Positions 17,392 to 39,998 of a stretch of 44,421 bases of DNA are shown here, in pieces; the stretch's first letter is position 1, and every line of letters begins with the position of its first letter. Source of the DNA: a virus. A model generated the notes under the pieces. That model had not been told where the DNA came from. It worked only from the letters and a program-made list of their open reading frames with translations, and did not search any database. The translations under genes were made by a program, and so were the position numbers. Location: IMG/VR virus record IMGVR_UViG_3300032282_002981, positions 1 to 44,421 of that record. The stretch is one strand, 5' to 3'.

Positions 17392-18737
17392 TGAATTATT
17401 TCTACGATCGCCAAATACGTCGTTACCTGCAACAGTTCATGCGATTCTTTGCAGGCTTCAGTGTGAAGATGGGCAAGGATACAAATGGATTAGACATATA
17501 TCAAAAAGTTCCTGTGCGCTACGGTGATATCAATCGTATGGCAGCGCACATCTTGAAGAACAACAGTGACAACACCATGAACACAGTTCCGTTCATTGCT
17601 GTGTATATCACTGAACTGTTGCCTGCACCAGAACGCCGGCTCAATCCCACACATACTGACTCAGTACAAGTGTACGAAAAACAGTACGATGCGGCCAGCG
17701 GTCAATTCCTAGACCAAATGGGACAGACATATACCATCAAGCGTCACATGCCTGTACCATATGACCTAAACGTACAGGTTGATATATGGACTTCAAATAC
17801 TGATCAAAAGCTACAGTTGATGGAACAGATATTGGTGTTGTTCAATCCGTCGCTGGACCTGCGCAACAACGACAACGTGTTTGACTGGAGCCGCATGAAC
17901 TTTGTGGAACTGATCAATACTGTATGGAGTGTGCGACAAGTTCCCAATGGCACAGATGATGTGCTTGATGTGGCTAGCATGATATTCAACTTGCCTATCT
18001 TTATCAATCCTCCTGCAATGGTACAGCGCCAGCAGTTGATCTACAACGTGATCAACACGATCCGTGCAGGTGACCAGGATGAGCTTAATCAGTTACTGGA
18101 TGATACCTATATCAGCGACGTGCAGTCCAAGTGGCAAAGTGTCACAGATCCTGAACGTGCTGTGCGTTTGGCCAACGGTGAACTTACATTGCTCACGCGA
18201 GATCTAAAGACCACAGTGGGCGGCGACTTGTTGTTATGGAACAAGTTCCTAGAGTCGTATGGTGGCATACGCAACGGTATAAGCCAGATCCGTGTCAATC
18301 GGCAGGATCGTCCAGGTGTATGGGGAGGCGAATATGTTGGTGTACTAACTGAACACCCAACTGACCCAAACAAACTTCTTGTTGATATCGATAGTGATAG
18401 TTTGCCTTCAAACACAAAGACAGCTATTGATGGCGTAATAGATCCTACACGTGCCGCACCAGGTGCAGGATTGCCTGCGGCAGCGGCTGGCCAGCGATAC
18501 ATAGTTGTATCATCACCTGCTGAGATTCCTGCATGGGATGGTCTTGTAGCAAATCCCGAAGACATCATTGAATACAATGGTAGTGCGTGGGTGATAAGTT
18601 TTGATGCGGCTGCTTCTACCGCAGTCGAATATGTCTTAAATATTGCAAGCAATCAACAATTAGCTTTCATGGATGGACAATGGATACTGAGTTACGAGGG
18701 GATATTTCAACCGGGATACTGGCGCCTGCTGGTGTAA
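17391..18737 (+). CDS. gp15: gp15 tail terminator / sheath stabiliser, extended
   Basis: Caps the finished tail and provides the head-binding interface. 448 aa, much longer than T4 gp15 (272). Core at residues 1-210: MNYFYDRQIRRYLQQFMRFF, VPVRYGDINRMAAHIL, VPFIAVYITELLPAP, then QTYTIKRHMPVPYDLNVQVD and LMEQILVLFNPSLDL. Residues ~210-340 are a helix-rich extension and ~355-445 carry a DIIEYNGSAWVISF-type module similar to those in gp14 and gp18. Starts inside the gp14 stop and overlaps the Nudix start by 58 nt, so the plus-strand genes are tightly coupled. Confidence 0.88.
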   Translation: MNYFYDRQIRRYLQQFMRFFAGFSVKMGKDTNGLDIYQKVPVRYGDINRMAAHILKNNSDNTMNTVPFIAVYITELLPAPERRLNPTHTDSVQVYEKQYDAASGQFLDQMGQTYTIKRHMPVPYDLNVQVDIWTSNTDQKLQLMEQILVLFNPSLDLRNNDNVFDWSRMNFVELINTVWSVRQVPNGTDDVLDVASMIFNLPIFINPPAMVQRQQLIYNVINTIRAGDQDELNQLLDDTYISDVQSKWQSVTDPERAVRLANGELTLLTRDLKTTVGGDLLLWNKFLESYGGIRNGISQIRVNRQDRPGVWGGEYVGVLTEHPTDPNKLLVDIDSDSLPSNTKTAIDGVIDPTRAAPGAGLPAAAAGQRYIVVSSPAEIPAWDGLVANPEDIIEYNGSAWVISFDAAASTAVEYVLNIASNQQLAFMDGQWILSYEGIFQPGYWRLLV

Positions 18738-19165
18738 CACGAGCCGCTGGCGGTTTGATCTATGCACTAGACACGCACAGATATTGCTGGCAGTTACGTA
18801 GCACAGAAGAAAAGTGGAGCGGCACATGGGGATTATGGGGTGGTCGCAGTAATCCCAAAGAAAGCCCTCGAGACACGCTACTTAGAGAGTGCCAAGAAGA
18901 AACAGGCATAACAGAATGGAACAAAATCGTACCATTGCATAGATACGTTAGCAAAGACAAGAAATTTATCTACGACACATTTTGCTTGGTAGTAGAGAAA
19001 GAATTCCTTCCAGTACTAGATCACGAAAGCGATGGCTACTGCTGGTTACCACTCGGAGTTCAGCCAAAGCCACTACATCACAAAAGCAAACAGCTGGTAC
19101 AGAATAGCAGTTTCATGAGCAAGTTGGTCAACATGGAGAAATGGTTAGATCAGCATGTCGATTGA
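18680..19165 (+). CDS. Nudix hydrolase
   Basis: Hydrolyses nucleoside-diphosphate-linked substrates. The box is complete: G-RSNPK-E, then seven residues, RECQEETGI (pattern GX5EX7REUXEEXGU) at residues ~55-77, with the preceding WSGTWGLWGG typical of the family. 161 aa from the ATG at 18680, which overlaps the gp15 end by 58 nt; no other in-frame ATG precedes the fold, so a long overlap is hard to avoid. The substrate cannot be read from sequence: oxidised dNTP, ADP-ribose, dinucleoside polyphosphate or capped RNA are all known for phage Nudix enzymes. It overlaps the next gene by 11 nt. Confidence 0.9.
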   Translation: MDTELRGDISTGILAPAGVTRAAGGLIYALDTHRYCWQLRSTEEKWSGTWGLWGGRSNPKESPRDTLLRECQEETGITEWNKIVPLHRYVSKDKKFIYDTFCLVVEKEFLPVLDHESDGYCWLPLGVQPKPLHHKSKQLVQNSSFMSKLVNMEKWLDQHVD

Positions 19166-19559
19166 AGCAGAAATAATTATTTTTCCAAAGACTATCAAGG
19201 CACCAGTAACCAGGCGCGGCGTAGATTTATATCATTGCTGGGATAAAAGACTAGCCAATCCACGACTAAAGAAAACATACAAAGACAGTATCAGTTGGAT
19301 CGAGCGTTGGTACTTAGAAGCAAGATACCATGCGAACAAAGAAAATTGGGATCACCCTATTGTAAAAGCTGTAAGGGAAGATAAAGAATTTAATCGACTG
19401 TTACGTTGGTGTTGCCTAGAGGATATCAAGTTATTGCAGACGTTAGCTGAAAATCCTATCTATAGGGACAGTAGTGCTACACAAAGACGTAGGCTTATCA
19501 TATGGCACAACAAATTTGCCGCGCTTATACTAAATCAGGAAATAGACAATCGCTTATAA
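19155..19559 (+). CDS. Unknown protein (134 aa), convergent with the bilin reductase gene
   Basis: Not recognised. Basic, helical, Trp/Tyr-rich: DLYHCWDKRLANPRLKKTY, ISWIERWYLEARYHANK, then RLLRWCCLEDIKLLQTLAEN. No metal motif beyond an adjacent Cys pair. The ATG overlaps the Nudix end by 11 nt, so it is probably co-translated. The last 35 bp overlap the end of the oppositely directed bilin reductase gene. A small inverted repeat at 19549-19567 spans its stop codon. Confidence 0.7.
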   Translation: MSIEAEIIIFPKTIKAPVTRRGVDLYHCWDKRLANPRLKKTYKDSISWIERWYLEARYHANKENWDHPIVKAVREDKEFNRLLRWCCLEDIKLLQTLAENPIYRDSSATQRRRLIIWHNKFAALILNQEIDNRL

Positions 19560-20196
19560 AGCGATTAACAGTAGTTTCATCAAAGCCAAGACTTTGCATT
19601 ACCCGAGGCGTATGAGGATTCATACGTTGATGCTGAGAATAAAAGTTCTGGCATCCTTTTGTATACTCTCTTTCTTTAAGATCAAGAGTTTTCCCTACAT
19701 TACCTAAGTACCACGGCAACGTAGTTGATACCATGTTTAGAATCTGATCAATTTCTTTTTCGTCACTTACGTTACCAGCGGCTACCATACCCGGGCTGAA
19801 TATCATACGTGCCCACTCAGGTAGTTCGCGTTCTTTCCGCCAATCATATTGCTTAACATGTTCTTGAAACCATAACATCATTTCATGTCGTGGATCACTT
19901 GACGCACTAAAATCATGGAAGCAACCGGTTATCTTCTTCTCGCCACAAATGATATCAAACCCAAATATAGGGCTTGTATCGTTAGTATGTGGATAGACTG
20001 TTACGTGTAACATATAGAGACCTTTTGTATCACGAACATCTACTGCATCAAGATGGGCTCGTCTGTAGGATGCTGATGTCCACACATGATTAGGCCAAGG
20101 AAAATCATGCCCTTCGTTGACTGGCAATCCAGTTGAGTCTAACATCGCCTGGATATCATCTTGAAGCTTCAGCATGGTGTCCCAAACATAGCTCAT
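19525..20196 (-). CDS. Ferredoxin-dependent bilin reductase (PcyX/PcyA/PebS family)
   Basis: Reduces biliverdin IXalpha with electrons from ferredoxin to a phycobilin. 223 aa, normal for the family. Seen: SYRRAHLDAVDVRDTKGLYM at ~43-62, LHVTVYPHTNDTSPIFGFD (His64), ITGCFHDFSASSDPRH with candidate catalytic Asp95, the LPEWARMIFSP helix near 125-135 and the C-terminal VNRFISDCLFP. The HDFS Asp and LPEW..IFS element are family hallmarks. Phage members make phycoerythrobilin (PebS; PcyX from uncultured ocean phages), and the product here cannot be assigned by eye. It overlaps the heme oxygenase stop by 4 nt (ATGA), so substrate supply and reduction are coupled. Confidence 0.9.
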   Translation of the reverse strand: MSYVWDTMLKLQDDIQAMLDSTGLPVNEGHDFPWPNHVWTSASYRRAHLDAVDVRDTKGLYMLHVTVYPHTNDTSPIFGFDIICGEKKITGCFHDFSASSDPRHEMMLWFQEHVKQYDWRKERELPEWARMIFSPGMVAAGNVSDEKEIDQILNMVSTTLPWYLGNVGKTLDLKEREYTKGCQNFYSQHQRMNPHTPRVMQSLGFDETTVNRFISDCLFPDLV

Positions 20197-20732
20197 ATCA
20201 TTATTTCTTCCATTGCTTGCATAGTAAGTTCAAATCCTTTGTTGGCTTCATCTGCTAGGTCGTCTGATACATTGGCTCGTATTATTGCTTCTAGACCGGC
20301 AGCATCGTCATAGTCTACGTGGTGCATAGGCATCTTGACTATTTTCTTCAGCATTTGACCTCCACGTAGGTCTCCTAGATAATGAACATAAACATGCGCC
20401 CAGGCTTCTCTATCACTGATACTTAATACATGATCTATATAATTTGATGTGGATGCTAGGGTTCTTGGTTGTACACCAGTTTTTTCTATGTCTTCGTTAA
20501 ATTGCGCAGTCCTGTCAAAACCTGGATGCTGTTCGCTTAATCCTAGCTTGGCACCTAGTGCTACTAATAAATTTCTTTTCCAGGCAAGATAATCTGCCCA
20601 TTGTGCAGGTGTCAGTTGATTTTTGACCATCGACGAAACAAAAGCATGACGCTCTGCTCGTCGATGATTTTCTTGTGTTAGTTCTTTAAGTGTAGTCATA
20701 CAGGTAATTATGCCTGCACTCAAGAAGCTCAT
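20193..20732 (-). CDS. ho1: Heme oxygenase (biliverdin-forming)
   Basis: Opens heme to biliverdin, CO and iron using reduced ferredoxin, supplying the adjacent bilin reductase. Seen: proximal His23 in TQENHRRAERHAF, distal-helix GDLRGGQ at 120-126 (family GDxSGG), and HVYVHYLGD before it. 179 aa from the ATG at 20732, or 168 from the ATG at 20699 (MTTLKELTQ), which is where homologues usually begin; the upstream ATG is 3 nt after the transporter stop and would be coupled to it, while the inner ATG has no ribosome site. Compact beside cyanobacterial heme oxygenases (~230-240 aa), lacking much of the C-terminal tail. Confidence 0.93.
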   Translation of the reverse strand: MSFLSAGIITCMTTLKELTQENHRRAERHAFVSSMVKNQLTPAQWADYLAWKRNLLVALGAKLGLSEQHPGFDRTAQFNEDIEKTGVQPRTLASTSNYIDHVLSISDREAWAHVYVHYLGDLRGGQMLKKIVKMPMHHVDYDDAAGLEAIIRANVSDDLADEANKGFELTMQAMEEIMI

Positions 20733-20735
20733 CGC

Positions 20736-21779
20736 TCACACTAAGAAAGTGAGAGTGCCAGCTGTTACTAATAGTATTGCCGCCCATGAACCAAGTGCAA
20801 TGTAATAGGTCTTCAGAGGTGTACCAAAATATCTATTACCAACCATCACGCATTTATGTGTTGGACTCAACAAATATCCGGCATAATCAACTGCAAAGAA
20901 CCACAAGAAATATTGTGGTCCAAACAGTTGCCCTAACAGCACAGCAAAGGCAACAAATTTACCCGAACTTCCCATCAAGAAACTAGCTACAAACCCAACA
21001 AGACTGATTATCAACATTCCCATAAATGTTGTTGGATCAAGTCCAAGTGACTGTATATAGGTTTGATAATCTTTTTCATACATCTTGAAATAATTACCCA
21101 AGATGATCACTGTAGCAACTACAATTATCACCTCCCAGTTGACATAAGACAACAATTTTCTTGGAGACCATTGCTGTGTGATAAACACATAGTATAATGT
21201 CAACAATCCAAAGATTGCAAACACATTATTTTCTCCGCCGCCCCATATGTATAATCCTAATGCAATAAACATCGGGAATATATTGCGTATGACTGAACTG
21301 ATCTTAAAGTTACCTGGTGTTATCACAATATCTTCTTCTTTGACCTGATACCAAATGTACCAAGCAATAAAAGCAAAGCTCACAACTAACAGTGGTGCGA
21401 TCATACCTATGAAAGTAGCATAGGTCAAACCAAATGCCGCTATCGGTAATATCACTGTTTTTTCCAGTGGTGACCACATGTAGTAGTGATGTGTAGACAG
21501 ATAATCAACTATGCCTAGTTTTTCTCGTCCTGGTCCTGATTTTGGGGCTACAGTATCTAGCAATCCTGCTGATACAGTTACTCGTCCTTCAATAGGCAAT
21601 ATTCCGCCTATTGCACTGAGCAACACCACCACAAACTTATTTGAACGGAAAGTATTTCTTACATAGGCAAACGCTGGGGCAAATAGAGCATACTCTTTAG
21701 CTAGTCCGGCGCTGATCATAATGAAGAATACCATCCATAGGTAGCCGAGACCACCTGTAAGTTTTGGAAGCATTTCCAT
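20736..21779 (-). CDS. Polytopic inner-membrane transporter-like protein, DUF401 type
   Basis: Integral membrane protein, 347 aa, about nine or ten hydrophobic helices. Two half-repeats can be seen: ILPIEGRVTVSAGLLDTVAP at 60-79 and LSPTHKCVMVGNRYFG near 310-325, resembling paired substrate-gate motifs of the DUF401 family within ion-transporter-like proteins. VDYLSTHHYYMWSPLEKTV between helices also fits. Substrate unknown. AAGGA is 8 nt before the ATG. It precedes heme oxygenase by 3 nt, so transporter, heme oxygenase and bilin reductase form one translational unit. Full-length-looking transporters are uncommon in phage genomes. Slightly short for the family (~400 aa), so an end helix may be missing. 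Confidence 0.78.
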   Translation of the reverse strand: MEMLPKLTGGLGYLWMVFFIMISAGLAKEYALFAPAFAYVRNTFRSNKFVVVLLSAIGGILPIEGRVTVSAGLLDTVAPKSGPGREKLGIVDYLSTHHYYMWSPLEKTVILPIAAFGLTYATFIGMIAPLLVVSFAFIAWYIWYQVKEEDIVITPGNFKISSVIRNIFPMFIALGLYIWGGGENNVFAIFGLLTLYYVFITQQWSPRKLLSYVNWEVIIVVATVIILGNYFKMYEKDYQTYIQSLGLDPTTFMGMLIISLVGFVASFLMGSSGKFVAFAVLLGQLFGPQYFLWFFAVDYAGYLLSPTHKCVMVGNRYFGTPLKTYYIALGSWAAILLVTAGTLTFLV

Positions 21780-21843
21780 GTTTTATTTCCTTAGGATTGC
21801 ATTGTAATTCAATGCATACTAATTATAGCTTGTGACCGATATC

Positions 21844-22293
21844 CTAGTCTACGAAGTCAATTACCAATATGCTTCTTTTGGTTGTAGCAGGCAAACTCTG
21901 ATGCATCACGTTGCCTGGAAAATAAACATAATCGCCTGTCTGTAACAACACGTGGGTATTGCCAATTTTTAGTTCGCCGATGCCTCTGACATTCAATATC
22001 AGTGTGATCTGACTGCTGGCGTGTATATGTGGATCTTGGTAACCACCGATCTGATAATCAATTACCCAAGAGCTTTTGACTCGTTTATTGATTTGTTCTA
22101 TTGCAGGTTCAAGGGCTTCAAACCAGGCGCGATGCCACATTGGCCTTTTCATATCATTGTTCAATGCAACCTGGAATCCGTTGTGTGTAGTGGTTTCTTC
22201 TTGTACTTGTTCCTCAAGAAGTCTTTCTACATCCATCCAGACATCGTAATCTTGTAATTCACTGTCATGTATTTCTATACGACCGCGTTGCAT
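21844..22293 (-). CDS. Cupin-fold metal-binding protein
   Basis: 149 aa with a C-terminal cupin barrel. Motif 1: GGYQDPHIHASSQITLIL (His89, His91); motif 2: LLQTGDYVYFPGNVMHQSLP (Pro126-Gly127 and His131). Three histidines would bind Fe(II), Zn or Mn; a Glu normally in motif 1 is not clear. The first ~60 residues are charged and include PMWHRAWFEALEPA. It could be a small dioxygenase, an isomerase or a non-enzymatic sensor. The start directly follows the previous stop (TAA-ATG). About 64 bp separate it from the transporter gene, the largest gap within this run. Confidence 0.75.
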   Translation of the reverse strand: MQRGRIEIHDSELQDYDVWMDVERLLEEQVQEETTTHNGFQVALNNDMKRPMWHRAWFEALEPAIEQINKRVKSSWVIDYQIGGYQDPHIHASSQITLILNVRGIGELKIGNTHVLLQTGDYVYFPGNVMHQSLPATTKRSILVIDFVD

Positions 22294-23028
22294 TTACTTT
22301 TTCCAATGTTTAATATATAGTTCTTTGATTTTGTTGCGTATGGGTGCAAAAGAATAATTGTGGAACAGTTTTCTTTTTTTCAACCACAATTTATCGCGTT
22401 CATTCGCATCTCGCACCACAAGTTCAAACTTATGCTCGCTCAGTGGAATAACGTGTGCTAACGGTGTACCGGTCTTGATTGTGATCCTGCCGTTATTATT
22501 AAACCAACGTAGCTGTACGTTTATTTCACTACTATGTCCTGGATCAAACAATCCTGGAACAGAATAATACTCAACATTATCATCATAGCTAAGAGGCAGT
22601 ACTAACAATTTAAGATTGTCTGGAACAACCACATGCCACGGTGTTGCTATTTTTACAATGGTATTGAGCGCACCTTTGGGTACAGGAATGTGCTGTGCCG
22701 CTTCTTTGTGGCTCACAACAAGAGGAACATCCATTAGGTTTGCTAGTTCAGCATCTGGAACTGTCCATTTGAAATCCCACATCTTACCTGGTTCTGTCTC
22801 AATGATAATGTCCCAGGGTGCTGTTAACAGAAAACCCTCTTGCATGATTTCAAACATTGCCGGACATCTATACGCATGTACACCACGCAGGCCTTCGGTG
22901 CGTTCTTTGAAATCAACATAGTCTTCTCTGCATTTTGCCACCCATGCTGGACGATAATCTTTGGCCTCAATGATTGGACTTAGATCTGTCATGCCATCTA
23001 TTGTTGAGAAGAATTCTATTTTTTTCAT
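22294..23028 (-). CDS. Unknown phage protein (244 aa) in the metabolic island
   Basis: Recognised only as a style of protein met in marine T4-like phages beside oxygenase genes; no function known to me. 244 aa, all-beta-looking: MKKIEFFSTIDGMTDLSPII, YRCPAMFEIMQEGFLLTAPW, then IATPWHVVVPDNLKLLVLPL, a NVQLRWFNNNGRITIKTGTP segment and LAHVIPLSEHKFELVVRD. The C-terminus is basic (KLWLKKRKLFH). It overlaps the 2OG-oxygenase stop by one base and abuts the cupin start, so it is made together with two probable non-heme-iron proteins. Confidence 0.72.
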   Translation of the reverse strand: MKKIEFFSTIDGMTDLSPIIEAKDYRPAWVAKCREDYVDFKERTEGLRGVHAYRCPAMFEIMQEGFLLTAPWDIIIETEPGKMWDFKWTVPDAELANLMDVPLVVSHKEAAQHIPVPKGALNTIVKIATPWHVVVPDNLKLLVLPLSYDDNVEYYSVPGLFDPGHSSEINVQLRWFNNNGRITIKTGTPLAHVIPLSEHKFELVVRDANERDKLWLKKRKLFHNYSFAPIRNKIKELYIKHWKK

Positions 23029-23621
23029 TACGTTGGTTCTCTTGTTAATGTTAGATTGAAAGCAAGATTTATTCTATCTTTGTTGGACAAATTTGTTTCC
23101 ACTTCGTGTGGCAAGTGTGCTGGAAATAAAATCAAGTCTCCGTCTGTTGGAGTGAAAATAAAATCTCTCACGAACGGCCCAGAGTCTAAACATTCGCCCA
23201 TCATGTTTGATGGATTTGGAAATCTCAATGCACCAGTACCAGTTCCTTGCAGATAGTATACTACAGCAAAGTGATTTTGTCTATGGGCATGCATGGTATT
23301 TTTAGATCCAGGTGCATTTATGTTTGCCCAATAATAGATATGCAAGTGCCGATTCTCTTCTACCGTTTCCTTGAAATTCTTGTCGATATTTCTATAGAAT
23401 CCAACTGCATTGTCTAAGAGATTCAATATGGGCTCTTGTAGCCAGTCTATCTTGCCAAGTGGGTTATCCCTTCTCCAACAACCTGGATTTGTTTTTGGTA
23501 AGGTCCTTGAATCTTTAGACTTGAGATCGTATAGTTCATTGATCAACTGTTGTCGTTGCTCATCTGTTCCAGCAGTAGTGTGGAACAGATCTGATCTGAA
23601 CATCGCTGCCATTGCTGCCAT
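23028..23621 (-). CDS. 2OG-Fe(II) oxygenase-like protein (cyanophage TIGR02466 type)
   Basis: Putative 2-oxoglutarate/Fe(II) oxygenase with jelly-roll fold, a family common in marine phages. 197 aa. Seen: YYWANINAPGSKNTMHAH with His111/His113, HFAVVYYLQGTGTGALRFP, GDLILFPAHLPHEVETN with distal His172, and DRINLAFNLT with Arg183 as 2OG-binding candidate. An H-x-H pair takes the place of the usual H-x-D/E. Substrate unknown. AAGGAG 5 nt before ATG. It begins 10 nt past the halogenase stop and overlaps the next gene by one base. Confidence 0.82.
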   Translation of the reverse strand: MAAMAAMFRSDLFHTTAGTDEQRQQLINELYDLKSKDSRTLPKTNPGCWRRDNPLGKIDWLQEPILNLLDNAVGFYRNIDKNFKETVEENRHLHIYYWANINAPGSKNTMHAHRQNHFAVVYYLQGTGTGALRFPNPSNMMGECLDSGPFVRDFIFTPTDGDLILFPAHLPHEVETNLSNKDRINLAFNLTLTREPT

Positions 23622-23630
23622 AGAAACTCC

Positions 23631-25148
23631 TTACACTATACCATCGTTGTTGTACCAGTCCTTGAGATACTGATAATGATTCTTGAATGCCTGTGTACCT
23701 GTTTTTACACGATACCTATGATTGTCTAAGTAAAACTCAACATACTTCTTTTGATCTGGCGTCAATTTAGACTTTGCATTTTTGTATCTTCCGCCGGCCT
23801 TGAGAATACTAAACCAATTGCCTACGTGGAAGCCAGAATGCTCTTGCAAGTACAGTTGATCATGCAATGGATCAAAGCTGTTGATAATATCTTTCATTGG
23901 CTGAGGTATCGCATTTTCGTCTTGTGCATGTATGGCCTGCCAGAATGGAGTATCGTTCTTGGTACTGAAATGATAGTGAATCCACACAAATGTAACGATG
24001 TCAAGTACCATTGCATTGTAATCAATATTGATGCCTTTGATGCAAGTGTCTGACCATACATTGTAATTCTTGTTCAGCATCAATGTAAGAACTTCAACTA
24101 TCTTGGTCGTAAAGGTGATGCTGGTTGCTTCTAACGGTTCAACAAATCCTGCTGCCAGACCAACTGCAACCACGTTCTTATGAGCAATAGAACGATGTGC
24201 ACCACATTTCATCTTGAGATGGTTGGCAGGTAAGTCTGGTTCGCCTAGTGCATCTCTTAGTTCTTGTTCTGCCTGTTCAGGTGTAATAAACTTGTCGCTA
24301 TACACGTAGCCGTTGCCAATCCTATTGAATGTAGGGATAGTGAATCTCCAACCAGCATCCATTGCAGTAGCCTTGGTATAAGGAAAACATTCTTTTTCTG
24401 GGTCTTTGTATTTTGTAGGAATCATCACCGCACGGTTGCAAGGCAATAGTCCTTCAATGCTATCAAATGGTACATCCAGTGTTTTCTCAATGAGCACAGA
24501 AGCAAATCCTGTGCAGTCTAGATAAAGATCAGCAGTATGTGTGCGGCCTTCTTGATCAACCAGCCCAGCGATGCCATTTTCATTTTGCTTTATATCAACT
24601 ATCTTGGTGTCAAAATATGATATACGATTGCCAATCAATTCTTTAAGCGAAGAAAGTATATCATATGCATTGAAATGTACTGCACCAAAGTCTTTGTTAT
24701 GCATCACAGAAAAATTGGTATCCATGTTTGCTAATTTAGGGCTGACGTTATTTTTAGCAAACTGATATGCTGGCATCCAATCAAAATATTCCTTAGCTGG
24801 ACGGTCAACAAAATAATCCACTGTTCGAACACCTGGGCCTACCACTGTGTTTTCAATGAAGTCATTCTCAATGAAAAAGTTTTCTTCGGTCCATCCTTCA
24901 AATTCAACACCTAGCTTGAAACTGGCATTGCTAGGCTTCATCCATTGCTTAGGCAAAAGTCCTGCATCGTGTAAGAATCTAGCAGTGGCCGGTTGTGTGC
25001 CTTCACCGACGCCAATTGGTCCAATGTCGGTACTTTCAATCAAAGTTATTTTTGTAGGCGTGTTTAGTCGTCCAACCAGATATGCCGCAGTCAGCCAACC
25101 ACTTGTACCACCACCAAAAATAATTATACTTTTGACTTTGTTTATCAT
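23631..25148 (-). CDS. Flavin-dependent halogenase (tryptophan-halogenase family)
   Basis: FADH2-dependent enzyme that makes a hypohalous species for electrophilic halogenation; a cyanophage member, VirX1, has been shown to act in vitro with preference for iodide. 505 aa, typical length. Seen: FAD-binding FGGGTSGWL (12-18), GVGEGTQP (~47-53), catalytic-lysine motif ASFKLGVEFEGW with Lys78 (cf. PrnA Lys79), AGWRFTIP at 266-272 matching the halogenase WxWxIP signature with Phe for the second Trp, and GFVEPLEATSI containing the Glu corresponding to PrnA Glu346. Key residues for halogenation are present. AAGGA before the ATG; 1 nt after the upstream stop. Substrate unknown. Confidence 0.9.
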   Translation of the reverse strand: MINKVKSIIIFGGGTSGWLTAAYLVGRLNTPTKITLIESTDIGPIGVGEGTQPATARFLHDAGLLPKQWMKPSNASFKLGVEFEGWTEENFFIENDFIENTVVGPGVRTVDYFVDRPAKEYFDWMPAYQFAKNNVSPKLANMDTNFSVMHNKDFGAVHFNAYDILSSLKELIGNRISYFDTKIVDIKQNENGIAGLVDQEGRTHTADLYLDCTGFASVLIEKTLDVPFDSIEGLLPCNRAVMIPTKYKDPEKECFPYTKATAMDAGWRFTIPTFNRIGNGYVYSDKFITPEQAEQELRDALGEPDLPANHLKMKCGAHRSIAHKNVVAVGLAAGFVEPLEATSITFTTKIVEVLTLMLNKNYNVWSDTCIKGINIDYNAMVLDIVTFVWIHYHFSTKNDTPFWQAIHAQDENAIPQPMKDIINSFDPLHDQLYLQEHSGFHVGNWFSILKAGGRYKNAKSKLTPDQKKYVEFYLDNHRYRVKTGTQAFKNHYQYLKDWYNNDGIV

Positions 25149-25149
25149 A

Positions 25150-26829
25150 TCATTTCCTTATAACTGTTATATACAATCCGTTCCACCACTCTCTAGCAGA
25201 CTCTTGAGAATTGAGTATCAACTTTTTGTATGGTACACGTACTCCTATTTTTTCAAATGCACTATTGGCACCATCTACTACACCATCCCAGTTGGCATCG
25301 TCAAATATCACGATGACTTCGTCTGCTAACACAGGATAATAATATTGCATCACCTGTTCAATCGATTCCGCATCGTGTGGTCCGTCGTAAAACATCATCT
25401 GCACAGGGGGATTAATCCTGTTGAGATTAACTCCTAGCATGTCCATGTCAAAAATATTAACAACGCTCATGTCAGCATATGGCTCTATATTTGCCGCAAA
25501 CTTTTCTGCGCTGTAGTCTGTTGGTAATCTTTTCAAATCGGTCCTGGCTGGTTGTGTTGCCTGTTTCCAGTTGTCAACAAAATATGCTGTTAGGTTGTTG
25601 TCTTTGAGAACGGCAGCGGCTGTTGCTCCTTGTGCGCTGCCAATTTCTAGATAAGATCCTACGCCTTTGGCCAGTAGATTCAAAAGTGTTTGCACACGAC
25701 TGCTGGTTAGCCCTGGAATCCTGATGTTGATTTTTGGTATGCCGGATTGCGCCACACATTCTGCCACGTGCTTGATAGTGTCTGTGTAATCAATTTCACT
25801 CTTGACGTGTTCAATCTTGTCACAGTACTGGCATTCCCAGCAATCAAACTTGCAGTCTTTGATTTTTTCTCGCCACACATTGATTGGCTTGCCTTTGAGA
25901 TTGGTTTCTTCTAGGAACTTTTCAAAGTTGTCGTGTAGTATTTCTTCGCCTGCGGCCCAGCGACTGATAATGTTCATTGTTTCGCCAAGGCGATCAACAC
26001 TTTCTCGGCCGTGCATCTTGAAAACATCAATACCTAGGTCGTCAAGGAATTCTTCCCAGTCGCTTCGCCATGGTGGAAGATTTGCTGTTTTAAGATACAC
26101 AGCAGGATCTTGTACTTCCCACTTAGGACAGCTGACACGGCTTATTGGATCGTTGAAGTATTGTGGCTGTTTGCCTGAGCGAGCATTGTTGTATTCAAAA
26201 TGCTCTACCATCATTGGACAGCTACCTAGACATCCTTCGTTGCCAAGCAGACTGTACTGTATGTCTTTGCCAAGATTGGTTTTAATCCATTCTTTGGCCT
26301 GCTTCAGTCTGAGCAATGTTGTACGATCTCTCATGAGGTCTCGATCTAGATTTATGTAATCAAAACCGTACTTGGCAAGATTTACGATCTCAGTTGCTGA
26401 GTGTACATCACGAAGTATGGTGTTCTTAACAAATAGATCTGGAAACGCGGCTTTGATCTGTCCTGTAGCCATCCAATGTGTGTGCGGTATGGTTACAACG
26501 CGAACACCGGCGTCGTACAACGGTTTGAAATTGATAATGAACTTATCAAGGTTCTGTTGTGTTGGAGGTACTTGTGTATTATTGAATGTAGCACTAATTG
26601 GAATACCAAGATGTTGCTGGATATTCAATGCTGTTTCAATTGCTGACTGGGCATCGCCAGTAGCATGGAATATATCGCCCATTGCATCTTGATCAAATGG
26701 AGATATGCGTGAAGTAAAATAGATATCAGCTATCCATTCTTTGTGAATGGATAGCCAATTGTAAAACATTGCAAACTGATTTTCGTTCAGCTTTGGGTTC
26801 AGCGGTATACTGAATATTTTTCTCGACAT
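25150..26829 (-). CDS. Two-domain protein: Cys-rich U32-like barrel fused to a class I methyltransferase
   Basis: 559 aa. N-terminal ~340 residues resemble a peptidase-U32/UbiU-like alpha/beta barrel: YDAGVRVVTIPHTHWM, YGFDYINLDRDLMRDR, then GNEGCLGSCPM (Cys200, Cys204), VSCPKW (Cys234) and CKFDCWECQYC (Cys326, 330, 333, 336), enough cysteines for one or two Fe-S clusters. Residues ~388-559 form a Rossmann methyltransferase of the Methyltransf_24 kind: YLEIGSAQGATAAAVL (SAM-binding loop), AYFVDNW, MMFYDGPHDAES, and EVIVIFDDANWDGV. The fold calls are from pattern; the fusion is seen in one uninterrupted frame. First gene of the eight-gene run, preceded by a hairpin leader and a late-like box. 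Confidence 0.7.
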   Translation of the reverse strand: MSRKIFSIPLNPKLNENQFAMFYNWLSIHKEWIADIYFTSRISPFDQDAMGDIFHATGDAQSAIETALNIQQHLGIPISATFNNTQVPPTQQNLDKFIINFKPLYDAGVRVVTIPHTHWMATGQIKAAFPDLFVKNTILRDVHSATEIVNLAKYGFDYINLDRDLMRDRTTLLRLKQAKEWIKTNLGKDIQYSLLGNEGCLGSCPMMVEHFEYNNARSGKQPQYFNDPISRVSCPKWEVQDPAVYLKTANLPPWRSDWEEFLDDLGIDVFKMHGRESVDRLGETMNIISRWAAGEEILHDNFEKFLEETNLKGKPINVWREKIKDCKFDCWECQYCDKIEHVKSEIDYTDTIKHVAECVAQSGIPKINIRIPGLTSSRVQTLLNLLAKGVGSYLEIGSAQGATAAAVLKDNNLTAYFVDNWKQATQPARTDLKRLPTDYSAEKFAANIEPYADMSVVNIFDMDMLGVNLNRINPPVQMMFYDGPHDAESIEQVMQYYYPVLADEVIVIFDDANWDGVVDGANSAFEKIGVRVPYKKLILNSQESAREWWNGLYITVIRK

Positions 26830-26881: not shown

Positions 26882-27556
26882 TTAATCAACTGTGCTGAAG
26901 TCTACTACAGGATCATCGCCGGGTAAGTTAACCAGTCTGCGGCCTAATCTCATTTCAACTCCGAGTTCGCTGAGATCCCATTTGCAGTAATCAAGCCCGT
27001 GTTCTTCTCTACCCGCATTTGGAATTTCTATACCAAAGTGGTCATGCATTACCAGATTGCATTCTTGTACTGTTGTACATGCATCTATTTTGGCTTGTAC
27101 CATTACACGTTTTTCTGCATACATCTCGCGTTCTTCTTCCGTGATGTAAGAAAAGTGATTATCCAACTCTAAGGTCATTAAAGTTTTCAAGAAAGTTGTA
27201 GTATTGGCTTTGTCTTCTTCGGTTAGTTCGTAGACTAATTTTCCGCTTGAGGATATTTCAACTTCATCTTCTGTTGAAGAGTATAAAACTTTAATGTCAT
27301 CATCTGAGGCTTTGAACTTGATAATATCTCCACGTGCATAGTCGCCTTCAGTGGTAAACAAATTAACACGTGCAAACTTAGATGCAAATGCTACTGGTTC
27401 GTCTAGGCCTACTGCCTTCAAAGCAATAAAGTCTACCTTAGGTATGTCTTTGGCTTCAATCTTGCCAATGCGATACATCCAGTAGTCATAGTAATATGAT
27501 ACGTGCTCTAGTAGCGGATCAGCTGGGTTTCTGTTTTCAAAAAGTATATAGTACAT
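26882..27556 (-). CDS. Unknown acidic phage protein (224 aa)
   Basis: Not recognised. Acidic, soluble, 224 aa: MYYILFENRNPADPLLEHVS, YDYWMYRIGKIEAKDIPKVD, a beta-rich VNLFTTEGDYARGDIIKFKA segment, a helical centre with YITEEEREMYAEKRVM, and a conserved-looking tail CNLVMHDHFGIEIPNAG then WDLSELGVEMRLG. It follows the 304-aa gene by 45 bp containing GGTAAATA (27585-27578 on the minus strand), a weak late-type box. Lies between the fibre region and the metabolic run and may belong to either. Confidence 0.75.
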   Translation of the reverse strand: MYYILFENRNPADPLLEHVSYYYDYWMYRIGKIEAKDIPKVDFIALKAVGLDEPVAFASKFARVNLFTTEGDYARGDIIKFKASDDDIKVLYSSTEDEVEISSSGKLVYELTEEDKANTTTFLKTLMTLELDNHFSYITEEEREMYAEKRVMVQAKIDACTTVQECNLVMHDHFGIEIPNAGREEHGLDYCKWDLSELGVEMRLGRRLVNLPGDDPVVDFSTVD

Positions 27557-27601
27557 TTATGGTCACCGTCTTCATGTTATTTACCAAACTTTAACGTATG
27601 G

Positions 27602-28516
27602 TCAGACATTATACACTTGGTTTAATCCGTCGTCTTTTTCACCTGAATTGTTCTCAATCAGCTGTTGTTCATCTGGTTGTACTTGCATTTGTCTAGCTCG
27701 TAGCTCTTCTTCCATACCTTTTTTATCAACTTCAAGTACTTTGTTGATAAAATCAGAAGTAACTTCGCCAATGTATCCAGCTTGTTTAGCCGGTAACAAT
27801 CCGAGATTTTTAGCTACTTCGTTGCGTATCAAATCTTGTCGTCTTTCAAAACGCAAATTCATGTGATTTGCCAGACCAACAACTTCCACCTGCTGTTCTG
27901 GAGATAACATCTGTATGGCTTCAAGATTGCCTGCGCCAATCCTGCCGTATGCTGACATGTCCATTGCAGCCTGGCTGGCCATACGAACTGTCCAATATTG
28001 TTTTTCAAACTCTTCTTCTTCTGGAGTACCAATGATTGACATTAAACTACGTCCATCTGCAGTCTTGCCATCTGGACTATCTAATAGTTCTTGAATCAGG
28101 TCCAAATAGTCCCTGCGCTCTTTATACACGTCGGCACAACGATTAACGCTACGACCAATGTCTTTGCGCACTTTTCCTGCTTCAATGAGAAGCATTTCTT
28201 TTTGCAACTCATCGTCTGTAGTTTCTGCGTCGCGCAAGAACATTTTTTCTTGCACTTCAAATTTAGCAATCTCATATTCCAGTGATTCAATAGAATACTC
28301 TCGAGATTTAAGTTCAGTCATGTACTGACGCAATTTACCAAAAGGAGTGAAAGAAGCTTCCCCAATAAACCAGCGCACCTTGAACCTGGGTTGTGTCCAT
28401 TCTTTATTATGTGCTGTGAAAAGAAGTTCTTTTTCAGCATCCGTTAAGATATTTTGATCAGTTACTGATCCCCTGGATGAATAGTTACTGTGATACTTGA
28501 TTATGTCGTTGCTCAT
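27602..28516 (-). CDS. Unknown helical phage protein (304 aa)
   Basis: Not recognised. Strongly helical and charged. Residues ~80-150 are a likely coiled coil (SLEYEIAKFEVQEKMFLRDA, DELQKEMLLIEAGKVRKDIG); residues ~165-230 have EFEKQYWTVRMASQAAMDMS and VEVVGLANHMNL; the C-terminus is Gln/Glu-rich. Near the N-terminus FKVRWFIGEASFTPFGKLRQ looks globular. GAGGAATAAA precedes the ATG. In the leader CTAATAG (28550-28544) and CTATTAG (28532-28526) form a 7-bp inverted repeat just before the ribosome site. Probably a virion or assembly protein by context. Confidence 0.75.
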   Translation of the reverse strand: MSNDIIKYHSNYSSRGSVTDQNILTDAEKELLFTAHNKEWTQPRFKVRWFIGEASFTPFGKLRQYMTELKSREYSIESLEYEIAKFEVQEKMFLRDAETTDDELQKEMLLIEAGKVRKDIGRSVNRCADVYKERRDYLDLIQELLDSPDGKTADGRSLMSIIGTPEEEEFEKQYWTVRMASQAAMDMSAYGRIGAGNLEAIQMLSPEQQVEVVGLANHMNLRFERRQDLIRNEVAKNLGLLPAKQAGYIGEVTSDFINKVLEVDKKGMEEELRARQMQVQPDEQQLIENNSGEKDDGLNQVYNV

Positions 28517-28561: not shown

Positions 28562-30238
28562 TCAATCACGGTGGAAACAGTGACCTGAGCTGGCGCCTGA
28601 GTGACCACCAGGACTGAGTGATCCGTTTATTTCTGTTGCTGTATCGCTGGAATAAACCAATTTGCCTGAACGATTATTCTGCGCACCATCATATAACGCA
28701 ATAACATATCCGGCTGTTTGCCCCATGCCGTAGTTCTCTTCACCTGAGTTACCACAGGGTTTTGATACACTAGACCCACTGGCTTCAGTTGATGTTGTAA
28801 GATTGACTTTGTTGAATGTATATCCACCTAGATACGTGGCAGCGGCTGTATTACCAGCATAACCATATCCCGTCTTGGCACTGAGTCCTTTTTGCTGACC
28901 GTGCGTACCTGCGGTAAACGAGGCCGAGGATACTGTTTCATTTGCCCAGTTGACTTTAGCAGTACTTGATGACGTATTAGTCCACCAGATACCTATGAAC
29001 TCCCCTGACACACAGGCTCCGTGATCATTCCAAGCGGCGCCTCCAAGGTTGGCAAATGTTTCTGTTGATATGGTAAATCTGTACATGCTACCTACAGCTT
29101 CGCCAGCTGTGTATATTTTCAATCTGTTGGAATCCTGTGCAGATCCAGTATTAGCCCATGCAGCCGGTGGAGATGCACCGCTGTTTGATTTGACTTCGGT
29201 ACGCATGTTAAATGCAGTGGTTGAACTACCATTGAAAATATAACCTTTGGTATCTCCTACACCGCCCGACTTGTAATGATAGTTGTCAATACAACCGTCA
29301 CCTAGGTTAGTTGAGGTGTCATTGGAATGCAGTACTCGATTGGCATTTGACCACAAACTGCTGTTCTGATATCCACCTACCATGTAGTTACGAGTGATGA
29401 TCTGCTTGTACAAGAATGGTACGTTTTGCTTGAGAGTAAATGTTCTCTCAACATACTGCGCGGCCGCATTGTTGTCTGTAGCACGTATGGTAAAAGTATA
29501 TGTGGTACCATCGGTATTGATACCAGCTGGTGTGTATGTACCTGTTATCAATCCTGTACTTGTGTTTAACGAAAAACCGGTAGGCAATGCGCCCGAAGAC
29601 AACGAGTATGTTATGTTACCCATTTGGAATGGATCATATGCAGATGTTCCAAGGCTTGCACCAGTGGCACTGGTAGCAGTTGTAACATGATATCCATATG
29701 TACCAGTTGAAGAACTTAGCACATCAGATGATGTATATCCACCGCTGTTGAGAGTGAAATCCCACACATACATTGCTGAATTATTATCAAATGTGTATGT
29801 TCCTGCCGCGATATCTTTATAATAAACTGTTGTATTAGTATCTGGGCTTAGATAGTTTTTAGCAGTTTCGTAACTGGTCCAACCTGTGGTATCGACTGCG
29901 TTCCATCCTGGATTTCTAAGCATGTAAGCACGGCATGGGCGAGTTGTGGTAAATGTACCGGCATCTACTTCGTTGATACCCACTGTGCATAATTTACCGT
30001 TGCCTGACAGATAGGCTGGCAAGTTTTGCCAATATCCCCAAATTGTAGTTGTACTTGGTACAACAAGGCCCGAACCATAACTTGTAGGTATATAAATGGC
30101 CACGTTGTTTGCTGGCGTCACAAGAGGACTACTGATACTGGTTGTTACTAATGCTTTTTCCAGTGGAGGAACGCCGGCGTGGTATCCACCGATACCTTTC
30201 GCTTCAAAATTTCCTCCAACGCTTCCAAAAAATGGCAT
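28562..30238 (-). CDS. Tail-fibre/adhesin-like protein, copy B of a tandem pair
   Basis: 558 aa, Gly/Ser/Thr/Asn-rich, beta-structured. N-terminus MPFFGSVGGNFEAKGIGGYH is shared with the upstream paralogue. Residues ~207-269 are a putative Ig (He_PIG-like) domain: ITYSLSSGALPTGFSLNTST, ITGTYTPAG, YTFTIRATD. Then a conserved block QIITRNYMVGGYQ, ANRVLHSNDTSTNLGDG at ~279-315, and a C-terminal NSGEENYGMGQ plus SLSPGGHSGASSGHCFHRD. Likely a receptor-binding or accessory fibre. AGGGGAAG precedes the ATG. Function inferred from composition, duplication and location among fibre genes. Confidence 0.75.
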   Translation of the reverse strand: MPFFGSVGGNFEAKGIGGYHAGVPPLEKALVTTSISSPLVTPANNVAIYIPTSYGSGLVVPSTTTIWGYWQNLPAYLSGNGKLCTVGINEVDAGTFTTTRPCRAYMLRNPGWNAVDTTGWTSYETAKNYLSPDTNTTVYYKDIAAGTYTFDNNSAMYVWDFTLNSGGYTSSDVLSSSTGTYGYHVTTATSATGASLGTSAYDPFQMGNITYSLSSGALPTGFSLNTSTGLITGTYTPAGINTDGTTYTFTIRATDNNAAAQYVERTFTLKQNVPFLYKQIITRNYMVGGYQNSSLWSNANRVLHSNDTSTNLGDGCIDNYHYKSGGVGDTKGYIFNGSSTTAFNMRTEVKSNSGASPPAAWANTGSAQDSNRLKIYTAGEAVGSMYRFTISTETFANLGGAAWNDHGACVSGEFIGIWWTNTSSSTAKVNWANETVSSASFTAGTHGQQKGLSAKTGYGYAGNTAAATYLGGYTFNKVNLTTSTEASGSSVSKPCGNSGEENYGMGQTAGYVIALYDGAQNNRSGKLVYSSDTATEINGSLSPGGHSGASSGHCFHRD

Positions 30239-30266
30239 TAACTTCCCCTAATATTCTTTATATTAC

Positions 30267-31937
30267 TTAATCTCTCTGGAAACAATGTCCAGAACTACAA
30301 CCACCGTGTCCACCAGGACTGAGTGATCCGTTTATTTCTGTTGCTGTATCGGTGGAAAAAACCAACGTGCCTGCACGATTATTCTGTGCGCCATCGTATA
30401 GCCCAACTAGATAGCCTTTGGTTTGACCTATACCGTAGTTCTCTTCACCTGAGTTACTACAAGGTTTGGTAGCTGTACCTGCACTACTCACAGTAGTTGA
30501 GTTGGCAAAGTTTGCTTTGTTAAACGTATATCCGCCTGCATAGTCACCTTGGGCGCCGCCGTAGCCATAACCAATCTTACCGCTGAGCCCTTTTTGCTGA
30601 CCGTGCTGTCCGATGCGTACATCTGCAGATGAAACTGTTTCGTTGGAAAATATCACTTTGGCTGTGCTAGTGTCAGTTGACCACCAAACACCAATCAATT
30701 CGCCCTGTATGGCACATCCGTGGCCGGACCAGGAAGCACCACCTATGTTGGCAAAAGTTTCGTTTGAGATTGTGAATCTCTGCATGTAACCTACGCCTTC
30801 GCCTGCTGTGTATATCTTTGTGCGGTCTGCATTGGTTGCCGATCCACTGTTATTTGCGGCTGCTCCTCCGCTGAGGGTGGTCATTTTAGCCTCAGTTCTT
30901 AGATTGAATTTGGTTGCAGCAGAGTTGTTAAAGATGTAACCTACGTTATCACTACAACCGCCTGACTTGTAGTGATAGTTGTCAACACATCCATCGCCTA
31001 GGTTAGTTGATGTGTCATTGGAGTGCAGTACTCGATTGGCGTTTGACCACAAACTGCCGTTCTGATATCCACCTACCATGTAGTTACGTGTGATGATCTG
31101 GCGATACAAGAAAGGAACTGTTTGTGTAAACGTATATGTTCTTTCGCTGTACTGTGCAGTTCCTCTGCTGGCATCGGTAGCACGTATAGTAAAAGTATAT
31201 GCGGTACCGTCGGTATTGATACCAGCAGGTGTGTATGTACCTGTTACAGCACCAGTAGATGTATCAAGTGAAAATCCGGTAGGCAATGCGCCTGATGATA
31301 TAGAATATGTTAAGTTACCCATCTGGAATGGATCATATGCAGAACGTCCTGCATTAATCGTTGATGACCCAGTTGCGCTGTTTATGTGAAAGGCAACATT
31401 TGATCCACTAGGAGCCGACACAACGGTTGAAGATGTCAATCCGCCACCATTCAACGTAAAGTCAAATATGTACATGGCAGAGTTGTTGTCATAGGTATAT
31501 GTTCCTACAGCAAAATCTTTATAGTACACGTTGATCGTTGCACCATAACCTGAGATATATGATGTGTTGGATTCGTTTAATGTCCAGCCGGTAATATCTA
31601 CTGCGTTCCATGCTGTTGATCTCAGCATGTACGCACGACATGGGCGTGTCAATGTAAATGTAGCTGTGTCAGTTTCGTTGACTGAAAGCGAAGTTAGTTT
31701 ACCTGGTCCAGATAGATAGGCTGGCAAACTGACATAGGTTTGCCAAAGAGCTGCGTTAGATGGCGTAACCAGACCTGTAGCAGAGCCAATATACAGTTGC
31801 ATATTGCTCACAGGAGTTGCAAAATGACTACCAATGCTGGTTGTTACACCAGCATTGTCTAGTGGGGTAACACCTGAGTGGTATCCCCCAATCCCTTTTG
31901 CTTCAAAGTTTCCGCCTACACTTCCAAAAAATGGCAT
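30267..31937 (-). CDS. Tail-fibre/adhesin-like protein, copy A of a tandem pair
   Basis: 556 aa from the ATG at 31937 (GGAGA 7 nt upstream; a TTG one codon earlier is ignored). Same architecture as the 558-aa neighbour: near-identical first 20 residues, He_PIG-like Ig domain (LTYSISSGALPTGFSLDTST, VTGTYTPAGINTDGTAYTFT), the ITRNYMVGGYQNGSLWSNAN block and a GGHGGCSSGHCFQRD C-terminus. Differences concentrate at residues ~25-200 and ~320-480, suggesting diversified binding surfaces on a common frame. 28 bp separate the two genes. Confidence 0.75.
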   Translation of the reverse strand: MPFFGSVGGNFEAKGIGGYHSGVTPLDNAGVTTSIGSHFATPVSNMQLYIGSATGLVTPSNAALWQTYVSLPAYLSGPGKLTSLSVNETDTATFTLTRPCRAYMLRSTAWNAVDITGWTLNESNTSYISGYGATINVYYKDFAVGTYTYDNNSAMYIFDFTLNGGGLTSSTVVSAPSGSNVAFHINSATGSSTINAGRSAYDPFQMGNLTYSISSGALPTGFSLDTSTGAVTGTYTPAGINTDGTAYTFTIRATDASRGTAQYSERTYTFTQTVPFLYRQIITRNYMVGGYQNGSLWSNANRVLHSNDTSTNLGDGCVDNYHYKSGGCSDNVGYIFNNSAATKFNLRTEAKMTTLSGGAAANNSGSATNADRTKIYTAGEGVGYMQRFTISNETFANIGGASWSGHGCAIQGELIGVWWSTDTSTAKVIFSNETVSSADVRIGQHGQQKGLSGKIGYGYGGAQGDYAGGYTFNKANFANSTTVSSAGTATKPCSNSGEENYGIGQTKGYLVGLYDGAQNNRAGTLVFSTDTATEINGSLSPGGHGGCSSGHCFQRD

Positions 31938-31955
31938 CAAATGTCTCCTTGACTA

Positions 31956-34900
31956 TTAACCAAACGAGCTCAATTGTCCATATACTGTGAAAGTTCCGTT
32001 AGCATTGACCAACAAGAATGTAACGATATCTGTCTTGCTTGCCCTACCAGTAGGTGTTGTACCACCTGCCCAGTTGATAGATATTGCGTTACCATCACGT
32101 TGGAATGCGCTTGGTATGTATGGTGTAGCACCTTGTGACAGTATCAATGTCAGTGTGATTACTCTGTCTGACGTTGTTGGTATGTTGGTAAAGTTGGCAG
32201 TAAAGTTAGCTGAAATACTGCTGTGATAGAACACATCACCTGTTGAGTAATCATGTGCTACTGTACCAGTTGCGCCGGTCTTTCTATTCATTACTTCAGT
32301 GATCTGTTGCAATGTAGTTGTACCACCAACTGCCAACGATGTCAATGTACCAACGCTGGTCAAGCTAGAACTTGTAACACCTGAACCAAGTGCAGTACCA
32401 CTCAACACACTTGTGCCGTTGATGTAGTATGCCTTGCCGCTGGCTAAGTTGATATGTTCACTGCTGTTCCAAGATGTTGTTGCGTTTGTATACTGCCAAG
32501 TCTTGTCAGTTGCGCCCTTGACAGTTATACCGCCGCCGTCTGCTGTGACGTCAGTAGCGCCGCCTGCGTTGAATGTCACAGAACCAGCAGTATTGCTTGC
32601 TGTTGTTGTGATACTGATCTGTGTAAGGCTGTCAATACTTGCGATGGTACATGTACCACCAAACACACCTGCACCTGAAGTTCTTGTCAATACCATGCCT
32701 GGGATCAAACCGTTTACTGAGCTTAGTCCAGTGATGGTTGTTGATGTTGATGTTCCGCTGATCGTACCAGTGATACCAGTTACCGCAGTAACGTAAGCCA
32801 ATTCCATGTTCTTGTCAGATACACGAACGTTGGTTGCGTCTTGATATGAAATCAAGCCATTTACTTGCATGTTACCGTTTACCACAAGATCGTTACGTAC
32901 TGTGGTTGTACCACTTGTAGCACCCAAGTTCAACGATGTAGCGGCACCAAAAGCATTAACTGTCAACAAGCTGGTATTGAACAATGTCAATGTACCAGTT
33001 GAAGTTGATGCAATAGTTGGGCTTGTACCGTTTACGTTCAGTGTAGTGGCGTTGGCCAATGTCACTGTTGCGTTGTTGATTGTGGCTGTACCAGTGCTTG
33101 CACCAACAGTCAATGTAGTTGCCGCACCTGCGAAGTTAACAGTAGTTGCCGTGGTGTTGACTAACGGGAACGATGTTTGGTTAGTTACGATACCACCTGA
33201 TCCGTTAGCATTCAATGTACCTGCAACTGATAGTGAACTGTTAGCATATACTGCACCACCAATACCAACACCGCCTGCTACTTGCAATGCACCTGACTGA
33301 TAGTTTGTTGAAACATCAGTGCCTGTTAATACCAATGTGCTTGCTTTGAACGGTGCATAGTCAATGCCTACACCGGTAGCAAAGTTAACTGTGCTTGTTG
33401 GTATTGCACCTTGTAGTGTCTTGAACAACTTGAAGGTTGCATCGTTGTGATCTCTTACCAAACCAGTAAATATTGACTGTCTTACTGGCGTAGAGATTGC
33501 GTGTGTTGCCGCAGTTGAACTGCTTGCGCCACGTGTACATCCAGCCAACTGTGCGTAAGATGTGACTGTTACGCCACTGTTATGGCTGGCCGCTGTGGTT
33601 CCGTTAGCACCACGTGTACATCCAGTCAATGTGTTTGTTGACTTGCCGGTGTAAGTGATCTGTTCAGATTCAATCAATATCGTGCCGGCAGTTGGGAAAG
33701 ATGCTGCCGATGTCAATGCAATGCTTGTGGTGCTATTGTTGATAGCGCCGTTTAGTGTAGTTGTTGCTGCCGCTGTGATGCTGGTATAGGTGATCTGTTC
33801 GTCTTCAAGCAACACGCGACCAGATGCGGCAAAACTTGTTGCTGATGCGATAGTAATCGTTGTATCGGATATACCAACTACTGTAACAACAGTCGAGCTT
33901 GCTGTGGTTGTTTCACCAAAGAAGCCTAAGTCAACTGTGTCACCTACGTTGCCTTTACCCATACGGATCATCGGATCGCTAACACTCAATGACTGTGTGC
34001 TAACACTTGAACCTGTACCGCCTACAGTAATCGTTCCTGTGATCGCTACGTTACCACCAACGTTCAAGTTACCAACGATACCAACACCGCCTTGTACACG
34101 CAATGCGCCTGTGCTAGTTGATGTAGATTCTGTTGGGATGTAGATTTCAACACCAGCAGGTGCGCCTACTCTATTCTGACCAATAATACGCATACGTTCG
34201 TTACCAGCATCAAAGCCGTTTGTAAAGAACGCAATGTCGTTGTGTGAACCATTTGAATCTGTACCAACTAACAAGTCACCTGTACCTGCTGTATCAATTG
34301 GTGCAGAGAAGAACAAGTACCCAGTACCTGGGCCTGTAACAGTGAAGTTAGGGTCTGCGTAGTTGGCAGATGTAACACCCAAGTCAATCCAACCACTTTC
34401 GTTATCGCCGTCAGATGAGTAAGCAATAAAGTCTGTAGATGCGCTTGAACCACTGCTCAAGTTCTTGACAGCAAATTGTACGAACTCGTTTGAAGAACCA
34501 GTGAACACACCAGTTGCACCAGTTAATCCAAATAACGTAGTACATACGACTGTTACGCCACTGGTATGGCTAGCGGCTGTTGTACCATCATAGGCGCGAC
34601 CACCAGTGGCAGTCAATGTATTTCCAGCTTTACTGATGTATTGGATGTTCTCACTACCGATGGTAATGATACCGTGGCTTGGGAACGAGCTGGCATCTGT
34701 CAATACGATGCTTGTATCGATGCTGTTGATTGAAGTAGCCAGTGTGGTAGATACCGTAACATCCTGTGTCAATGCACGTGCATCAGCACCTTGATAGATA
34801 GCATCACCGACGGCATGTATGATGCCTTCAACTAGCAAGCCTGGAACAAGTCCATCGTGCTCGGCACCAACTAAACGCATCTTTTCGTTGCCGGTTGTGA

Positions 34901-38069: not shown

Positions 38070-38090
38070 ATGATTATCCTCGCCTTGATC

Positions 38091-38098
38091 TATTTATC
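38091..38098 (-). promoter_or_regulatory. Late-type promoter of the giant fibre gene
   Basis: Minus-strand GATAAATA starting in the stop codon of the 117-aa gene, 21 nt before the giant-gene ATG. TTGAT and ATCAA flank it as a 5-bp inverted repeat. Confidence 0.6.
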
Positions 38099-38785: not shown

Positions 38786-38789
38786 ATCG

Positions 38790-39983: not shown

Positions 39984-39990
39984 GATAAGT

Positions 39991-39998
39991 TATTTATC
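39991..39998 (-). promoter_or_regulatory. Late-type promoter box at the 397-aa gene
   Basis: Minus-strand GATAAATA in a 38-bp gap; 7 nt (ACTTATC) separate it from the ATG at 39983. Confidence 0.6.

Follow-up and report, generated by a model that had tools for sequence, protein, structure and literature searches.

Aquatic viruses abound in phage halogenases and 2-oxoglutarate (2OG) oxygenases, for which no convincing role has been put forward so far. Flavin-dependent halogenases are known already from cyanophages, and an adjacent hemO-pcyX cassette, encoding a heme oxygenase and a PcyX-type bilin reductase, has been described in phages (PMC11480375). Here, we examined IMG/VR record IMGVR_UViG_3300032282_002981, a fragment of 44,421 bases (hereafter the window, meaning this whole stretch) from the tail-operon region of a T4-like myovirus. 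A run of eight minus-strand genes (19525–26829) encodes, in order of transcription, a methyltransferase-containing fusion protein (Uf), a flavin halogenase (HAL), a 2OG-Fe(II) oxygenase (OX), a phrog_7084 family protein (UNK), a cupin (CUP), a DUF401 transporter (TRN), a heme oxygenase (HO), and a ferredoxin-dependent bilin reductase (FDBR). An earlier note on this DNA had proposed either one pathway that makes and decorates a bilin or two modules meeting at a 64-bp gap ahead of the transporter. Our comparisons indicate that the run very probably consists of two cassettes with separate functions, brought next to each other at a recombination hot spot where tail-fiber genes meet genes for a NUDIX protein and a tail-sheath stabilizer (TSS).

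Several described systems resemble parts of this locus. The hemO-pcyX cassette of pelagiphage Mosig and marine PcyX (PMC11480375) likewise places adjacent HO and PcyX-type reductase genes near tail/neck genes in a T4-like aquatic phage; its reductase is 44% identical to FDBR, and Mosig HO also follows 2OG oxygenases. The window differs in that the pair is preceded by the halogenase/transporter module, and no AlaS gene was noted in it. The VirX1/PrnA-type halogenases of cyanophages syn9, Syn10, S-RIM44, and S-CREM1 lie beside a phrog_7084 gene and 2OG oxygenases, after tail-fiber assembly genes, but identity is ~30%, and the window has a single HAL with the Uf fusion directly ahead. Cyanophages S-H25 and metaG-MbCM1 carry s558-type, s304-type, Uf, and TRN genes in the same order in the tail-fiber region, though HAL and UNK were not found in their run. 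Cyanomyovirus hyperplastic regions (g15–g18 and near gp5; PMC2984593, PMC3037559) are also structural-gene neighborhoods that gather metabolic genes; here, however, tail-fiber genes flank the site on one side and NUDIX/TSS genes on the other, and what is inserted is an ordered module that recurs. The six genes from Uf to TRN, a conserved tail-fiber-linked cassette, are the more novel part of the run, and we found no description of this ordered block as a unit in the literature searched, which mostly excluded subscription journals.

Loci were gathered from viral contigs with the best 80 matches taken per search (60 loci by TRN, 6 by HAL, 80 by FDBR, and 80 by UNK). Open reading frames (ORFs) were labeled by profiles built from the gathered loci, and gene order was then read. 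With queries centered on the window, any bias is expected toward joint occurrence of the two modules. UNK was present in 92 loci, together with Uf in 79, OX in 88, HAL in 61, and TRN in 42, while HO or FDBR accompanied it only once, in the window itself. In the recurrent order, s558-s304-s224-Uf-(HAL)-OX-(CUP)-UNK-(TRN), the enzyme module comes straight after distal tail-fiber-region genes, with s224 in 73/92 and s304 in 70/92 of these module loci. The 79 loci with Uf and UNK fall into 48 clusters at 95% Uf identity, so the pattern does not come from one repeated phage; 24 of the 79 have the Uf-OX-UNK core without HAL. In most cases, the halogenase family found here does not stand alone as a metabolic gene but belongs to an ordered block with two uncharacterized families, Uf and UNK, and this block comes and goes as a whole. 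On the bilin side, HO was present in 83 of 87 FDBR loci, UNK or HAL in one (again the window), and TRN directly ahead of HO in no other. Among 29 long contigs (59–353 kb), 21 had FDBR, 11 had UNK, and three had both, two of these by weak UNK matches only; in the one clear case, G014, the genes were 183 kb apart. Uf occurred in one and HAL in two of the 21 long contigs with FDBR.

The two modules also exchange at a single site. Contigs L074–L077 have HO-FDBR at the same position and share the NUDIX and TSS genes with the window (NUDIX 84–98% identical), without the six-gene block. Conversely, in L155 and L156, Uf-HAL-OX-UNK-CUP-OX-TRN adjoins NUDIX/TSS without HO-FDBR, and this module-only state was also seen in L032, L223, and L226. 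Three states are therefore found at one site: both modules (the window), HO-FDBR only, and module only. Module proteins of L155 and L156 are 38–76% identical to those of the window, compared with 35–39% for NUDIX (35–41% across module-only loci where measured), so that the module is more similar than the backbone to its counterpart in distant phages. Sister contig G001 matches the window at the DNA level over 18450–20720 and 38018–42757 and has none of the ten genes running from TRN through s557, s558 among them. The edge of DNA homology falls in the leader, ~20 nt before the HO start. Because sister homology begins there, we place the boundary at the TRN|HO junction and not at the 64-bp gap; the two-module alternative of the earlier note holds with this correction. 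Its "bilin plus transporter" module was ruled out by gene order in the UNK loci, the FDBR loci, and the sister contigs. On this reading, cassette 1 (Uf-HAL-OX-UNK-CUP-TRN, 20736–26829) is an exchangeable module that moves with the s557–s224 fiber-region genes, and cassette 2 (HO-FDBR, 19525–20699) belongs to the resident backbone.

A single pathway, in which heme is cleaved and reduced to a bilin that is then halogenated, hydroxylated, methylated, and moved by TRN, might be read from the way the genes adjoin with short gaps in this single contig and from enzymes that all look intact. Yet the halves lie apart in essentially all relatives, an outcome that the earlier note itself had named as contrary to its proposal, and the nearest sisters retain HO-FDBR without the rest. 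The eight genes were not co-inherited as one biosynthetic cluster in the surveyed loci, and we find such a pathway barely credible; the halogenated phage pigment, a tempting lead, is set aside as very unlikely. Alternatively, the contig could be a chimeric assembly with an artefactual TRN|HO junction, in keeping with the uniqueness of that junction among the loci. Sister similarity flanks the exchanged block on both sides (18450–20720 and 38018–42757), however, so that two coincident misjoins would be needed, and a chimera is very improbable.

The modular architecture is far better established than what cassette 1 acts upon. Its enzymes, assigned by homology, would add halogen, hydroxyl, and methyl groups to an aromatic or sugar target on phage adhesins or on a surface that they meet. 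We tentatively favor, at well below even odds, a module that may covalently halogenate, hydroxylate, or methylate the phage's own adhesins, diversifying host recognition, such that an editing system is exchanged together with the fibers. This is favored because the halogenase block moves as a unit with distal tail-fiber-region genes, the Uf-OX-UNK core being fixed beside them and exchanged with them, and because HAL-UNK lies by fiber genes in very divergent phages (it adjoins tail-fiber genes in cyanophages syn9 and S-RIM44). We found no link of flavin halogenases to phage tail fibers in the literature searched, largely outside subscription journals. Cassette 1 could instead convert tryptophan or another aromatic into a diffusible halogenated small molecule directed at the host or competitors, with TRN moving the product or a precursor and the fiber neighborhood serving as a convenient late locus. 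Such a product is only slightly less likely, given that free-tryptophan halogenases are the closest solved structures to HAL, that the block includes a transporter, and that an antibiotic function has been proposed for PrnA of cyanophages (PMC2984593). It sits less well with the tight linkage to fiber-region genes and with the loci, noted above, that keep the core without HAL. Moreover, the Tyr pair that binds tryptophan in free L-tryptophan halogenases was not found in HAL: the Tyr-Tyr-H-G segment of PyrH, which we take to be part of the tryptophan-binding site, aligns to Q-E-H-S-G in the window, making binding of free tryptophan doubtful. Modification of the host surface or its glycans during infection (blocking superinfection, for example), and not of the virion, would suit an oxygenase, a methyltransferase, and a transporter, and adhesin and receptor would then swap together; among the module genes, however, the Pfam scan showed neither a glycosyltransferase nor any known gene for surface biosynthesis, and we consider this reading unlikely.

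Some points weigh against separate cassettes and against adhesin modification. Most of the surveyed contigs are fragments, so absence of a gene is no proof for any single contig. No clear terminator was found between the two cassettes in the window, and both could therefore be co-transcribed there. TRN lies ~3–5 kb upstream of HO in about six freshwater contigs, with DnaK/Hsp20/ClpS-like genes between them; a transporter-bilin link is thus not absent elsewhere, but its arrangement differs from that of the window. TRN, found in many other contexts, may therefore have joined cassette 1 opportunistically and be an independent passenger. Finally, the target proposed for cassette 1 is putative.

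An ORF check recovered the eight genes on the minus strand at the coordinates given beforehand. The tight spacing was also borne out, with all junctions ≤9 nt for ORFs as first called except for one 64-nt gap: Uf/HAL 1 nt, HAL/OX 9 nt, OX/UNK a 1-nt overlap, UNK/CUP 0 nt, CUP/TRN 64 nt, TRN/HO 3 nt (with the HO start at 20732), and HO/FDBR a 4-nt overlap. As these gaps are too short, a peptide precursor gene within the run is unlikely. Co-direction is uninformative, since all main genes between 44320 and 19525 lie on the minus strand; the run forms the 3′ end of a long late tail operon, within which the choice of Uf as its start is arbitrary. Pfam bore out the domain names for seven of the eight genes, with UNK giving no match. 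Two promoter candidates were set aside: a single copy of the T4-type late promoter TATAAATA is present in the window, at a position outside the run and no more than expected by chance, and a 10-of-12 sigma-70-like site in the 64-bp gap is of a kind no commoner than in shuffles.

FDBR (19525–20196, minus strand; Fe_bilin_red, E 9e-15) is nearer to PcyX (PDB 5owg, E 8e-59) than to PcyA (5e-13). Its Asp50 aligns with Asp55 of PcyX, allowing for a probable offset of 8 in PDB-chain numbering; Asp55 has been named as the PcyX-specific catalytic residue (PMC11480375). FDBR is a predicted phycoerythrobilin synthase, and by homology to characterized phage enzymes (PMC11480375), cassette 2 would convert heme to biliverdin and then to phycoerythrobilin. 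A scan of viral contigs for FDBR with the single protein as query gave no match, and a profile scan matched >580 stretches. One viral bilin reductase (L063:12551-13252) has Glu in place of the PcyX Asp55 and is perhaps of PcyA-type product. HO (20193–20732, minus strand; Heme_oxygenase, E 2e-14, with matches to PDB heme oxygenases) has the proximal His23 and the motif GDLRGGQ (GDxxGGQ). Its true start is probably 20699 and not 20732, since homologs begin M-S-T-L-K-E-L, which would make the TRN|HO gap 36 nt. An inverted-repeat leader spans the HO start (20690–20721, minus strand) at the point where DNA homology with sister phages ends. In sisters L074, L075, and L076, a 13–14 bp inverted repeat (−17 to −20 kcal/mol, z about −7) extends across the HO start codon and Shine-Dalgarno region; it is degraded in the window (−8). 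Translational control or a processing hairpin is a possible function.

HAL (23631–25148, minus strand; Trp_halogenase, E 6e-93) has an invariant Lys78, Glu340, and FAD-binding GGGT motif in the alignment. Its GWRFTIP motif corresponds to WxWxIP with the second W replaced by F, WRWTIP being found in some module relatives, and its matches to solved structures in the PDB include a PyrH-type 5-halogenase (E 8e-71) and VirX1 (E 6e-50). Aromatic content of neighboring proteins was compared: Trp percentages at loci with and without HAL were 1.65 versus 1.13 for s224, 1.48 versus 0.63 for s304, and 2.24 versus 2.14 for s558, a modest difference that is confounded by ancestry and from which nothing was drawn. 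HAL-UNK also occurs beside tail-fiber-like genes in two contigs binned as bacterial, L234 (Nonlabens) and L236 (a gammaproteobacterial metagenome-assembled genome), probably prophage or misbinned phage DNA. In a 191-kb viral contig, four halogenase genes lie in a row (G016:C1:185117-191092), with FDBR far off in the same contig. OX (23028–23621, minus strand; 2OG-FeII_Oxy_5, E 3e-14) is TIGR02466-like, with that match slightly under the cut-off, and residues H111, H113, H172, and R183 are kept in 31/31 aligned sequences. Catalytic residues are thus kept in FDBR, HAL, HO, and OX. CUP (21844–22293, minus strand; Cupin_2, E 2e-7), a cupin/2OG-oxygenase-like protein, is an optional member.

Uf (25150–26829, minus strand; phrog_1458, E 2e-169) combines a predicted N-terminal TIM-barrel domain bearing Cys clusters with a C-terminal class I O-methyltransferase-like domain. 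Of the "U32-like/methyltransferase fusion" named previously, the methyltransferase part was confirmed (Methyltransf_24, E 9e-10), and the U32 part was not, with the Pfam U32 profile matching none of 13 Uf members. The predicted model best matched COMT-like methyltransferases, U32 peptidase 5d88, and MTHFR; the 5d88 match is weak (E 7e-7), MTHFR scores similarly, and the Cys regions are poorly modeled. Alignment columns show invariant NEGCxGxC, C234, and CxFDCWxCxxC. UNK (22294–23028, minus strand; phrog_7084, E 7e-37) belongs to a family very widespread in aquatic phages, with 366 viral relatives. Its predicted beta fold is dUTPase-like by a weak fold-level Foldseek match (E 6e-4), and it matched no dUTPase sequence profile. 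DUF6065 had been suspected for UNK, and was rejected, as Pfam assigns UNK no family and the name was absent from the literature searched.

TRN (20736–21779, minus strand) is an AF0261-type DUF401 membrane transporter (42.4 bits against a curated cut-off of 24; E 8e-11; TIGR00529 partial). The 60 viral TRN loci show several genomic contexts, and TRN accompanies the enzyme block in 17/55 loci with a halogenase and 22/24 without. In L010, L029, L030, L031, L063, and L109, phage DnaK/Hsp20/ClpS-like genes precede HO-FDBR, and TRN lies a few kilobases upstream; in L038, L039, and L046, one module clade, a gene judged by eye to be Dps/ferritin-like comes directly after TRN.

Upstream of the run on the minus strand are s224 and s304 (26882–28516; phrog_1604, phrog_1409), which precede Uf in most module loci, and s558 and s557 (28562–31940; He_PIG, E 4e-8 and 2e-7; phrog_1417), paralogous Ig-like-domain proteins of the tail-fiber region. 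Beyond them, a 2037-aa fiber-like protein (31956–38069, minus strand) has a borderline carbohydrate-binding CBM_5_12 match (25.2 bits, below cut-off). At the other end, FDBR overlaps a convergent plus-strand gene (19155–19559) by 35 nt at their 3′ ends (19525–19559), with a hairpin at 19547–19567.

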